A DNA stretch of 64,000 nucleotides from positions 1 through 64,000 of the forward strand of contig NZ_JAUHPW010000012.1 of NCBI RefSeq assembly GCF_030418455.1, written 5' to 3'. Shown here piece after piece: positions 46,276 to 49,031 of this stretch; the first letter of the stretch is position 1, and the number at the start of each line of letters is the position of its first letter. The notes below the pieces were generated by a model. The model worked only from the letters and a program-made list of their open reading frames with translations. It was not told the DNA's origin and searched no databases. Origin of the DNA: Demequina litoralis (GTDB lineage: Bacteria; Actinomycetota; Actinomycetes; Actinomycetales; Demequinaceae). The position numbers and the translations under genes were made by a program.

Positions 46276-46704
46276 GTGGCGACGCAGGAGGACGCGCAGG
46301 CGGCGGTCGACGCCGTGGTCGCGAGGCTCGGATTGAAGGCCGGCCAGATCATCCAGGAGTTCGGCTACGACGAGGACACGGACGCAGACTTCCGTTCCTC
46401 CGTCGAGGCCCTCACAGGCGAGGACCTCGTCGACGAGGACTACGGGGACGTGACGGACGGCTCGCTCGTCTGGTTCCGGGACGGCGACGACGACCTCGCC
46501 GACCTCCTCATGGACGCCCAGACGCTGCTCGACGACGGCGCCGCGGTGTGCGTGTGCACCCCCAAGGCCGGGCTTCCCGGCCACGTGCAGCCGCGCGACG
46601 TGCAGGAGGCCGCCTCGGTCGCGGGCCTGCACGCCACCTCGACGTTCGTCATCGGCACCCGCTGGACCGCGACCTACCTGGTCGAGAAGGGCCGCTCCAA
46701 GTGA
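46276..46704 (+). CDS. DUF3052 family protein
   Basis: A 142-aa actinobacterial protein of the DUF3052 family (LKAGQIIQEFGYDEDTD, VWFRDGDDDLADLLMDA, TFVIGTRWTATYLVEK). The GTG start has GAAGGGGG upstream. Its stop overlaps the ahpE start by GTGA. The same neighbourhood (aceE divergent, peroxiredoxin downstream) is known to me from other actinobacteria, pointing to a conserved but unknown role, perhaps in redox or nucleic-acid metabolism. Confidence 0.9.
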   Translation: MATQEDAQAAVDAVVARLGLKAGQIIQEFGYDEDTDADFRSSVEALTGEDLVDEDYGDVTDGSLVWFRDGDDDLADLLMDAQTLLDDGAAVCVCTPKAGLPGHVQPRDVQEAASVAGLHATSTFVIGTRWTATYLVEKGRSK

Positions 46705-47165
46705 CCCATCCTCTGGTGGGCCAGCCGGCCCCCGAGTTCAGCATGACCGACACGCACGGCCGCACGGTCGAGTCCGCGGACCTCGCGGGGAGCGCGTACC
46801 TGCTCGTGTTCGTGCCGTTCGCCTTCTCGGACACGTGCACCAACGAGCTCATCGACCTGCGCGCGGCGGACGACCTGCTCACCCGCGACGGCCTCAAGGT
46901 CATCGTGGTGAGCTGCGACTCGGTCTACACGCTCAAGGCGTGGGCGGACACCCATTCCTACAAGGCCGACCTGCTGTCGGACTTCTGGCCGCACGGCGAG
47001 GTGTCGCGCCAGTACGGCGTCTTCAACCCGCGCAAGGGCCTCGCGACGCGCGGCTCGTTCCTGGTCGACGCGGCCGGCACGGTCCGGTGGGCGATCGTCA
47101 ACCCCGAGGGCGAGGCGCGCGACGTCGCGGAGTACCGCGGCGCGGTGGAGTCGCTGCTCGGCTGA
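46701..47165 (+). CDS. ahpE: AhpE-type peroxiredoxin
   Basis: A 154-aa thiol peroxidase of the one-cysteine AhpE group. The peroxidatic cysteine is Cys46 in FSDTCTNEL within VFVPFAFSDTC, preceded by the AhpE-like APEFSMTDTHG start. It reduces hydrogen peroxide and organic hydroperoxides; the reducing partner is probably mycothiol/mycoredoxin as in other actinobacteria. GTG start overlapping DUF3052. Confidence 0.92.
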   Translation: MTHPLVGQPAPEFSMTDTHGRTVESADLAGSAYLLVFVPFAFSDTCTNELIDLRAADDLLTRDGLKVIVVSCDSVYTLKAWADTHSYKADLLSDFWPHGEVSRQYGVFNPRKGLATRGSFLVDAAGTVRWAIVNPEGEARDVAEYRGAVESLLG

Positions 47166-47186: not shown

Positions 47187-47220
47187 AACGCTTATGTGAT
47201 GCTCGTATAAGCGTTAATGT
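47187..47220 (+). promoter_or_regulatory. SatD-gene promoter with inverted-repeat operator
   Basis: AACGCTTAT (47187-47195) and ATAAGCGTT (47207-47215) form perfect 9-bp arms 11 nt apart. TAATGT (47215-47220) ends 7 nt before the ATG, the leaderless spacing, and TTATGT (47192-47197) is 17 nt further up. The repeat therefore fills the space between -35 and -10. Confidence 0.6.
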
Positions 47221-47227
47221 GGCGAGC

Positions 47228-47848
47228 ATGGACAGAGTCGCTGCTGTCATCGTCGACATCGTGCGATCGCGCGCGCTCGCCGATCGCACGGCGGCGCAGC
47301 GCTTCGTGCTCGAGGCGTTCACGCGTGCGGAGCGCGATGCCCGAGTGGTCAAGCCGCTCGGCGCCACCGTCGGCGACGAGTTCCAGGGCGTCTACGCCGA
47401 CTCCGCCGCGGCGCTGCGTGTCACCACGCTCGCCGCTCTCACGCTGCCCGAAGGGATCGAGGTGCGTGTCGGTATCGGCCTGGGCGAGGTGACCGAGGTC
47501 GACGGCGACATCTCCGACGGCAGCGCCTGGTGGCGTGCGCGCGAGGCGATCGACGAGGCGCATCGCCGAGAGGGCGCGGGCGCGCCGGCGGTACGGGGGT
47601 GGAGTGTCGGTGGCCCGGGAGACGATGCGGTCATGACCTCGGCGGTGCTCCTCCTTCGTGACCACGTCCTCGGCCGTATGAAGGCGCGCGAGCGACGGAT
47701 CGCGGCCGGCCTGCTCGAGGGCGACCAGCAGTCCGTCATCGCGGCGCGCGAATCGATCAGCCAGGCGGCGGTATCGCAGTCCGCCCACCGTTCCGGCGGG
47801 ATCGCGCTGCGCGAGGCGCTCGACACCCTCGATGCGGCGATGCGGTGA
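47228..47848 (+). CDS. SatD-family protein with C-terminal helix-turn-helix
   Basis: A 206-aa SatD-like protein. The N-terminal part (VAAVIVDIVRSRALADRTAAQRFV, LGATVGDEFQGVYAD) has a nucleotide-cyclase-like look. The last 45 residues contain AARESISQAAVSQSAHRSGGIALREAL, which reads as a sigma-region-4-like helix-turn-helix. Such a protein could bind DNA, and a perfect inverted repeat sits between the -35 and -10 boxes of its own promoter. Function of the family is not established; in streptococci it is linked to acid tolerance. Confidence 0.8.
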   Translation: MDRVAAVIVDIVRSRALADRTAAQRFVLEAFTRAERDARVVKPLGATVGDEFQGVYADSAAALRVTTLAALTLPEGIEVRVGIGLGEVTEVDGDISDGSAWWRAREAIDEAHRREGAGAPAVRGWSVGGPGDDAVMTSAVLLLRDHVLGRMKARERRIAAGLLEGDQQSVIAARESISQAAVSQSAHRSGGIALREALDTLDAAMR

Positions 47849-47852
47849 GCGC

Positions 47853-48260
47853 TCAGGCCGCGACGAGCACGTAGCCGTCGGGAACCTCCCCGCGCAGCCA
47901 CGCCCATGTGACGCGCGCGGCCTCGGACGTGGTCGCGAGCGGTGCGAGCATGTCGGCGGTGGAGGCGATGCGTCGCGGCGGGCCGTCGCGGTCGGGTCCC
48001 GAGGGGACCTCGATCACGTATCCGTCCGGGCGCCAGGTGACGCGCGCCCACACTGCCGCGTTCCGACGCCGTGCGAACCCCATGTCGAAGCACTCGTTGA
48101 GGCGCCCGATCTGGATCGCGAGCCTGCGACGGCTGCTGGTCGGCCGTCGATGCCAGCCGACCTCCTCCCAGACGACCGGTGACTGCGGCTTCGGTTGCAT
48201 AGCGAGCCAGATGTCGAGGTCGTCCTCGATGCTCAGCCCGTCGTCCGTGAACTCGTCCAT
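47853..48260 (-). CDS. Hypothetical protein
   Basis: A 135-aa soluble protein with no family that I recognise. It starts MDEFTDDGLSIEDDLDIW, has a basic middle (RRPTSSRRRLAIQIGRL) and ends with a segment rich in aromatic residues (ARVTWAWLRGEVPDGYVLV). It converges with the SatD-like gene with a 4-nt gap. The frame and GC3 bias support a real gene, but no strong ribosome site is visible before the ATG at 48260. Confidence 0.6.
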   Translation of the reverse strand: MDEFTDDGLSIEDDLDIWLAMQPKPQSPVVWEEVGWHRRPTSSRRRLAIQIGRLNECFDMGFARRRNAAVWARVTWRPDGYVIEVPSGPDRDGPPRRIASTADMLAPLATTSEAARVTWAWLRGEVPDGYVLVAA

Positions 48261-48331
48261 GTCCGGCCCCCTTCGGCGTCTCCATGGTCGCGCCGGGGTC
48301 CGACAGCGCATCCGCCTGACCCGCCTCGAGT

Positions 48332-48372
48332 GCCCGACGAGCGCCCGACGAGCGCCCGACGAGCGCCCGAGT
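48332..48372. repeat. 11-nt tandem array next to hairpin copy 2
   Basis: The unit GCCCGACGAGC repeats at 48332, 48343 and 48354, with a partial copy from 48365 that runs into the left arm of the hairpin. The period is not a multiple of three, so the array is not coding in repeat. The rest of 48261-48491 holds no gene. Confidence 0.85.
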
Positions 48373-48418
48373 GGTACCAATCGGTACGCGACGCGGCGTA
48401 CTCGTACCGATTGGTACC
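48373..48418. repeat. GGTACCAATC-type hairpin, copy 2
   Basis: GGTACCAATCGGTACG (48373-48388) and CGTACCGATTGGTACC (48403-48418) form a perfect 16-bp inverted repeat with a 14-nt loop. Core sequence and loop length equal those of the element at 22885-22936, and both touch a short tandem array. It lies 73 nt upstream of the tRNA. Confidence 0.88.
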
Positions 48419-48491
48419 AATGTGGCCGGGGCGGAAGCGCGACCCGGCGGGGTGGACCCGGCCGCCGCATCGTCCTGCCACAATGGTCCGC

Positions 48492-48568
48492 GGGCCCTTA
48501 GCTCAGTTGGCTAGAGCACTGCGTTTACACCGCAGGTGTCGTCGGTTCGAGTCCGGCAGGGCCCACCA
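48492..48568 (+). tRNA. tRNA-Val (anticodon UAC)
   Basis: 77 nt including an encoded CCA end. Acceptor GGGCCCT pairs with AGGGCCC; D-arm GCTC-AGTTGGCTA-GAGC; anticodon stem CTGCG/CGCAG with loop TTTACAC, anticodon TAC at 48526-48528; T-arm GTCGG-TTCGAGT-CCGGC with one G-U pair. The antisense strand carries the end of the MarR gene. No promoter is recognisable directly upstream. Confidence 0.97.
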
Positions 48569-49031
48569 ACCCCTCCATGCCGCGCCCCTCGGCGGCGCGC
48601 GAGGTCGCCAGCAGCGCGGTCGCGACGTCCGCGGCCGTCGCGAGCGGCACATCGTCCACCCCCGCGAACAGCGCGGCCAGGCCCTCGAGGTGCGCCGCGG
48701 CGCGGCGGTCCCAGAACTCCCGATGCGCCGGTGTGAGGTGCAGCCGCAGCGTGCGCCGGTCGGTCGGATCGGGCTCGATCGCGAGGAATCCCGCGCGCTC
48801 GAGACGGAGCGCGAGCTGCTTGGCCGCCTGCCGGGAGGTGCCGTAGCGGTCCGCGGCCTCGCCCAGCGTGGGAGCCTCATCGCCGAACGTCTCGATCGCG
48901 ACCAGCAGCATCCACTGCTTCGCGGACAGCCCGGCCGGCGCGAGCATGTCGTCGAGGAGGTTCTTCCACGACTGGCTCAGCAGGAACACCGTCGCGAAGA
49001 GGGTGCGCGCCGCATCGTCTCGGCCGCTCAT
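48525..49031 (-). CDS. MarR regulator whose frame ends inside the tRNA antisense strand
   Basis: A 168-aa MarR-family protein: LSAKQWMLLVAIE, PTLGEAADRYGTSRQAAKQLALRLERAGFLAIEPDPTDRRTLRL. The conserved domain ends near residue 150. The frame then runs without stop through the tRNA-Val antisense strand, adding GPAGLEPTTPAV; the stop codon is opposite the anticodon. The start overlaps the stop of the membrane-protein gene upstream (ATGA), so they form an operon and the regulator probably controls it. The last 14 codons are likely functionless read-through or a sign that the original 3' end was replaced. Confidence 0.85.
   Translation of the reverse strand: MSGRDDAARTLFATVFLLSQSWKNLLDDMLAPAGLSAKQWMLLVAIETFGDEAPTLGEAADRYGTSRQAAKQLALRLERAGFLAIEPDPTDRRTLRLHLTPAHREFWDRRAAAHLEGLAALFAGVDDVPLATAADVATALLATSRAAEGRGMEGLVGPAGLEPTTPAV

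Follow-up and report, generated by a model that had tools for sequence, protein, structure and literature searches.

A candidate family-wide operator lattice at satD and the probable self-control of this gene in Demequina litoralis

We analyzed a 64,000-nucleotide stretch of the genome of Demequina litoralis (contig NZ_JAUHPW010000012.1, positions 1 to 64,000; referred to here as the window) and focused on satD, a gene preceded by a perfect inverted repeat. Comparison of the repeat across genomes, together with structure prediction for the protein, makes it probable that SatD is a one-component transcription factor acting on the promoter of its own gene. An earlier note on this DNA had read the repeat as a perfect operator. 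Its conservation bears out that reading, and the note had missed both the array geometry and the membrane protein gene that usually accompanies satD: the feature appears to be larger than first described, namely a family-wide, self-directed operator lattice of which the Demequina repeat is one part.

Inverted repeat and promoter elements upstream of satD in Demequina

The repeat consists of two 9-bp arms, AACGCTTAT and ATAAGCGTT, which are complementary at 9 of 9 positions, are separated by an 11-bp spacer, and together end 12 bp 5' of the satD start codon (Table 1). It is AT-rich and lies inside a region of approximately 70% GC. The 29-bp repeat pattern, allowing up to 3 mismatches, matched once in the window and never in 100 shuffles, and a search of the whole 3.02-Mb genome also returned a single match, confirming the perfect arms described earlier and their uniqueness. 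A consensus promoter scan of the DNA upstream of satD detected no sigma-70 site, and no terminator was found. A TA-N2-GT element was present in 11 Demequina loci, one of which (L009) departs from it at the G, and it ends 7 bp before the ATG (6 bp in two of the 11). The window copy, TAATGT, is a likely -10 element, and its position 7 bp 5' of the ATG fits a leaderless transcript, in agreement with the earlier proposal of a leaderless gene. With the ATG taken as +1, the left arm (-41 to -33) covers the place where a -35 box normally lies, and the right one runs from -21 to -13, abutting the -10 element; the previous description of the arms as filling the space between the -35 and -10 boxes was wrong.

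Apart from the window, satD loci of named Demequina numbered 11, and 10 of them had the core repeat at the same place. Ungapped alignment of 11 Demequina loci, including that of the window, revealed five invariant positions on the left (CTTAT) and six on the right (TATAAG), almost no information at the spacer center, and a repeat-to-ATG distance that is constant within 1 bp. Among 44 whole genomes of the genus (the window genome included), the pattern CTTAT-N11-ATAAG occurred in 11, with one copy each, and a reversed control pattern occurred in 4, also with one copy each. satD was present in 12 of the 44 genomes, and coordinate comparison placed all 11 sites at satD. The earlier note had made its proposal depend on conservation of the repeat at satD-like genes; the repeat is kept in 11 of the 12 satD-bearing Demequina genomes, and other phyla have the same geometry with other half-sites (see below). 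The only satD-bearing genome without the site, G318, probably belongs to the same species as D. phytophila L012. By these comparisons, satD carries in its own promoter a predicted operator of its own that is both conserved and specific to satD.

Half-site lattice in other Actinobacteria and other phyla

In other Actinobacteria, the start of satD carries arrays of convergent AAG-N7-CTT pairs and divergent CTT-N15-AAG pairs with a 28-bp period. The Demequina repeat corresponds to a single divergent pair, with N15 as its exact spacing. When all 5-mers were paired with their reverse complements in an unbiased count, peaks appeared at matching spacings. Of 65 loci, 53 had direct 5-mer repeats at 28 bp, where block shuffles predicted 4.2, and 36 had them at 56 bp; this test used 65 of 81 loci, with L001 to L012, L037, and L048 to L050 left out. 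Because related loci are not independent, the z-scores are overstated, and a set with approximately one locus per genus gives the fairer number (28 bp in 23 of 28 loci and 56 bp in 14 of 28). Sequence of the same length inside the gene had no peak at 28 bp, and its other peaks fell at codon multiples.

The lattice keeps a fixed phase relative to the start codon in 52 loci whose half-sites are of the T type (TGAAG and others). There, convergent pairs start at -16 (27 loci), at +12, inside the first codons (24 loci), and at -44 (17 loci); the start codon was chosen among in-frame candidates in a way that favors lattice offsets, and the count made without this choice also reaches its highest values at -16 and +12. 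A TATNNT element usually lies within the middle pair, just 5' of the ATG. Some T-type loci (e.g., L028 to L036 and L053 to L065) have a third operator inside satD codons 5 to 9. There, the operator sequence would dictate an N-terminal extension of the protein; Demequina SatD has neither the internal operator nor the extension.

An exact pattern of three half-sites (TGAAG-N7-CTTCA-N11-TGAAG) had 35 matches in 19 of 296 genomes of the class and none in the other 277, and its reversed control had no match in the 296 genomes. All 35 matches were at satD starts when coordinates were compared by eye, so that, at the stringency of this pattern, SatD appears to have no other target. The pattern was absent from 27 of the 46 satD genomes, as expected for degenerate or other half-sites. 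A scan for a single 8-mer pair per locus left most loci at p > 0.05 against shuffles; it was too weak because one degenerate pair is not distinctive. Repeated 7-mers per locus gave no support in Actinobacteria, with 36 loci above and 37 below the inside-gene control (n = 79).

The 28-bp spacing extends beyond Actinobacteria. Among 118 genomes sampled from the phylum to which a Balneolaceae genome belongs, 25 had a match to the Pfam SatD family (PF16264). Bacteroidota loci of the RGDSFQ type (type 2) had 28-bp spacing in 9 of 13 cases, with different half-sites, and loci of the GDEFQ type (type 1) had 29-bp spacing in 6 and 28-bp spacing in 4 of 11 cases, one of the eleven being a spirochaete (L104). 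The Bacteroidota test used 24 of 28 loci, the near-copies L136, L137, L140, and L144 being left out, and repeated 7-mers exceeded the inside-gene control in 23 of the 24. Two satD copies on haloarchaeal plasmids (L188 and L189) had a 29-bp period. Additionally, a held-out test was made on 16 of 44 genomes that have the small membrane protein gene usually found next to satD (the partner; see below) and no adjacent PF16264 match. A divergent SatD-like gene was located directly upstream of the partner in 14 of these 16 loci; the spacing test left out the remaining two, L220 and L221, where no SatD-like gene was found. The 28-bp repeat was present in 12 of the 14 loci (1.2 expected), which had been selected through the partner and not through the repeat. 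This divergent subfamily (L222 to L235), often with a FERTAGDE.Q motif, goes undetected by PF16264, and the SatD family is therefore larger than annotated.

Domain organization of SatD

SatD of the window matched PF16264, the secretion and acid tolerance D family, over residues 6 to 119 of 206 (E = 1.2e-14), with a score of 54.9 bits that passes the Pfam curated cutoff of 29. Aligned relatives in this family have the same two-domain build, and the closest ones (67 to 80% identity) belong to named Demequina species. An AlphaFold2 model based on 64 sequences had a predicted local distance difference test (pLDDT) score of 96.5 and a predicted template modeling score of 0.92.

When the C-terminal 76 residues were modeled alone, the pLDDT was 94. 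The structural matches shown for this domain were sigma region 4 or LuxR/FixJ-type helix-turn-helix (HTH) domains (3mzy, 6in7, 8a5r, and 5xt2), among them sigma-H 3mzy (Z, 8.2; root mean square deviation [rmsd], 6.3; 73 residues) and EL222 8a5r (Z, 8.0; rmsd, 2.4; 68 residues); Foldseek E-values for the domain alone were 0.06 at best. Structure prediction of the C terminus, which the earlier note had suspected of being HTH-like, thus returned a DNA-binding type of fold, and the comparison is consistent with, if not overwhelming evidence for, a multi-helix sigma-4/LuxR-type HTH. SatD resembles sigma region 4 and LuxR/FixJ regulators in this part of the protein and differs from them in its signal domain, which has a cyclase fold rather than being a receiver or LOV domain.

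The predicted recognition helix varies with the half-site. All 16 loci whose half-sites are of the A type (ATAAG or ATCAG) have Gln at position 179, and none of the 51 loci with T-type half-sites does; the contact between Gln and adenine is a textbook pairing. When the two traits were mapped on an N-terminal domain tree, one branch (SH-aLRT, 97) carried the only change in half-site type and the only change at residue 179, and the association therefore represents a single evolutionary event. The tree left out L048, L037, L049, L050, L020, L031, L032, L039, and L063, which are truncated, distant, or near-copies.

For the cyclase-like part, SatD residues 1 to 150 were compared with known structures using Foldseek/VIA. 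They aligned with the class III cyclase bPAC (5mbg; Z, 13.6; rmsd, 2.6; 136 residues), GTP cyclohydrolase III (2qv6; Z, 12.9; rmsd, 2.4; 114 residues), and GGDEF domains (Z, 11.7; rmsd, 2.7; 119 residues). An hhalign comparison with a profile of 30 actinobacterial class III domains (probability, 89; E = 2e-6) aligned D10 and D50 with the metal aspartates of that profile (FADI and GD). The fold and profile comparisons support both the earlier label "cyclase-like" and a class III nucleotide cyclase fold for the N-terminal domain. SatD shares the fold and the metal residues D10 and D50 with class III cyclases (bPAC 5mbg, Ma1120, and Rv1900c) and GGDEF domains and differs from both in being fused to an HTH, with its own putative operator in front. 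The GG[DE]EF motif is absent from window SatD, whose VGDEFQ is only partly alike. The enzyme GTP cyclohydrolase III has two domains of this kind, whereas SatD has one, followed by the HTH.

Residues D10, R20, G49, D50, E51, Q53, R80, G84, G86, G98, A104, and R105 were invariant in the 64 aligned rows; in RGDSFQ-type Bacteroidota SatD, E51 and R105 are not kept (as judged by eye). Class III cyclases are marked by a base-selecting Lys and a transition-state Asn-x3-Arg motif. SatD keeps Arg105 of that motif, but the position of the Lys before GD is occupied by varied residues in the alignment, and the catalytic Asn position is aromatic in a hand alignment (hhalign is unreliable in that part). The apparent loss of Lys and Asn favors a nucleotide-binding signal domain over a cyclase, and the most likely role of SatD is to bind a metal-nucleotide as a signal, not to produce cyclic AMP. 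That SatD is an active nucleotidyl cyclase or another enzyme using nucleoside triphosphates, with self-regulation serving dosage, would be compatible with control of its own promoter and would account for the retention of both metal aspartates and the closeness to GTP cyclohydrolase III; the same two replaced positions make it unlikely.

Table 1. Predicted and mapped features at satD in the window
Feature	Position	Strand	Basis or remark
Left operator arm AACGCTTAT, core CTTAT (47191-47195)	47187..47195	+	Over -35 region; core invariant in 11/11 Demequina loci
Right operator arm ATAAGCGTT, core ATAAG (47207-47211)	47207..47215	+	Abuts -10; TATAAG invariant in 11/11 Demequina loci
Likely -10 element TAATGT	47215..47220	+	TA and last T identical in all 11 Demequina loci; assigned from position
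satD coding sequence, 206 aa	47228..47848	+	Start ATG at 47228; Pfam match
Predicted class III cyclase/GGDEF-type domain, residues 1-130	47228..47617	+	AlphaFold2, Foldseek/VIA, hhalign; metal-site Asp10 and Asp50 kept
Predicted C-terminal sigma-4/LuxR-type HTH domain, residues 131-206	47618..47845	+	Predicted structure, fold comparison
Predicted recognition helix, residues 179-189, with Gln179	47762..47794	+	DSSP of AlphaFold2 model; covariation

Partner gene, proposed regulation, and alternatives

Downstream of satD and in the same orientation, 98 of 109 loci (a set that counts two genomes twice, as L049/L103 and L050/L104) have a small membrane protein gene, which often starts at, or overlaps, the satD stop codon. 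In whole genomes, coordinate comparison showed that this partner adjoins satD in 41 of 46 cases; in 3 of the 41 (G187, G204, and G265, corresponding to L072, L082, and L077), it lies on the opposite strand, tail to tail with satD. The partners have in common, in outline, the C-terminal motif GG-R-x-IG-x-LER ... AKG-x2-RF ... EY-x-LVGS. Only the RGDSFQ-type partner matched DUF3307 among five partners tested, and PLSDB annotates the haloarchaeal partners as DUF3307. SatD and one partner were compared with the known anti-phage defense families of PADLOC-DB and matched none (E <= 0.1), NCBIfam yielded nothing meaningful for SatD or the partner, and an assignment of either to secretion-effector families was rejected, the weak matches lying far below the cutoff. 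No prophage or virus link of satD was detected in 50,697 phage records or IMG/VR. Large plasmids carry satD with an adjacent downstream gene in Arthrobacter (L187, pZXY21) and haloarchaea (L188 and L189); the two genes overlap by 4 bp in all three, and one of the plasmids was typed as conjugative.

No match to the partner was found beside the window satD (47849 to 48470) or across the window genome, which suggests a lone self-regulated gene whose partner is gone. L012 also lacks the partner, and the other ten Demequina have it. In D. phytophila L012, satD is without operator and without partner, both seemingly lost together. Upstream of the window satD is a gene (46701 to 47165) that we take to be peroxiredoxin-like; it had a strong match in 42 of the 44 Demequina genomes, with satD beside it in only 12, and satD appears to have been patchily gained or lost at one place in the genus. 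The earlier statement that no regulator is adjacent holds for the immediate neighbors; 0.7 kb downstream, on the other strand, is an open reading frame (48525 to 49031) that is presumably MarR-like.

From the comparative and structural evidence combined, it is very probable that SatD regulates its own gene and, as a rule, the adjoining membrane protein gene. In the mechanism that we propose, the C-terminal HTH would bind half-sites (ATAAG in the window) spaced along a fixed lattice. This lattice lies over the -35 and -10 positions, and many relatives have it extending into the leaderless gene's first codons as well. Bound SatD would shut off its own transcript, and nucleotide binding would loosen or tighten its hold on the DNA. 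The usual target would be a two-gene operon of satD and the small membrane protein gene; in the window genome, self-regulated satD alone would remain. Because the lattice covers the -10 element and first codons in many relatives, the bound protein should block the polymerase. We infer direct binding, repression, and a ligand; of the autorepression claimed earlier, the self-directed operator is supported by comparison, and repression is the inferred part. Classic autoregulated one-component repressors are of the lambda CI, MarR, and TetR types. SatD would share with them local self-control via operators over its own promoter and differs in its leaderless promoter, its fixed 28-bp half-site lattice, which recurs across phyla, and its cyclase-fold domain.

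Several points weigh against self-control by SatD. The structural Z scores of approximately 8 for the HTH are modest for a helical domain, and Demequina carries one divergent pair only, not the full array. No site was recognizable or scorable in 14 of 81 loci, including D. phytophila L012. The link between residue 179 and the half-site, with one change in the tree, is not statistically independent, and the overlap of operator and promoter suggests repression rather than establishing it.

The available portions of two published reports (PMC11323703 and PMC10326533) give acid tolerance and Streptococcus pyogenes essentiality for the SatD family, with no molecular function and no regulation by SatD's own HTH. 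In those of PMC11323703, satD is cited for an acid-tolerance role in Streptococcus mutans, and among the accessory genes of S. pyogenes it alone scored in the top quarter for essentiality. Among the open-access papers listed by full-text searches, none described SatD as an autoregulator that binds DNA, subscription papers being outside this coverage. A more detailed scenario, which we put forward tentatively, is that of a self-contained nucleotide-sensing switch in Bacteria and Archaea: SatD dimers would sit side by side on the 28-bp lattice, over both promoter and start codon, a metal-nucleotide in a non-cyclizing pocket would control their assembly, and derepression would free a harmful membrane effector, with spacing set by the protein assembly while half-sites and recognition helix drift. 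The S. pyogenes essentiality reported in PMC11323703 would fit a repressor that, once lost, sets free a harmful partner; a partner that is harmful if unchecked would explain why accessory satD is essential where present in that species.

Three other explanations of the lattice were considered. SatD might bind it and activate its own promoter, recruiting RNA polymerase through the sigma-4-like domain in a positive feedback. The likeness of the HTH to sigma region 4 and LuxR-type activators and the location of the Demequina left arm at the -35 position agree with this idea, but a lattice that covers the -10 element and first codons in many relatives does not, and we consider activation quite improbable. 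It is less plausible still that an unlinked regulator binds the repeat and that satD is merely its target, as the satD loci without a clear site might suggest: the lattice was found only with satD, and half-sites differ by lineage within an unchanged geometry, accompanied by a change in the SatD recognition helix. Finally, one 9-bp inverted repeat per 200 bp is not rare, and others are present, but a core that does not vary among 11 loci and is confined to satD leaves a chance palindrome, terminator, or RNA structure barely credible; the terminator scan and the position upstream of the likely transcript start led us to reject a terminator or RNA element.

If SatD does control its own promoter, a widespread family becomes open to experiment as a transcription factor whose operator is defined and whose signal pocket and target are predicted, the target being itself and a membrane protein. 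The cyclase fold would then provide a one-component regulator with its signal domain. The family would also be a useful case of regulator-operator coevolution, in which spacing is kept across phyla while sequence changes, and would offer a handle on the essentiality of satD in some streptococci.
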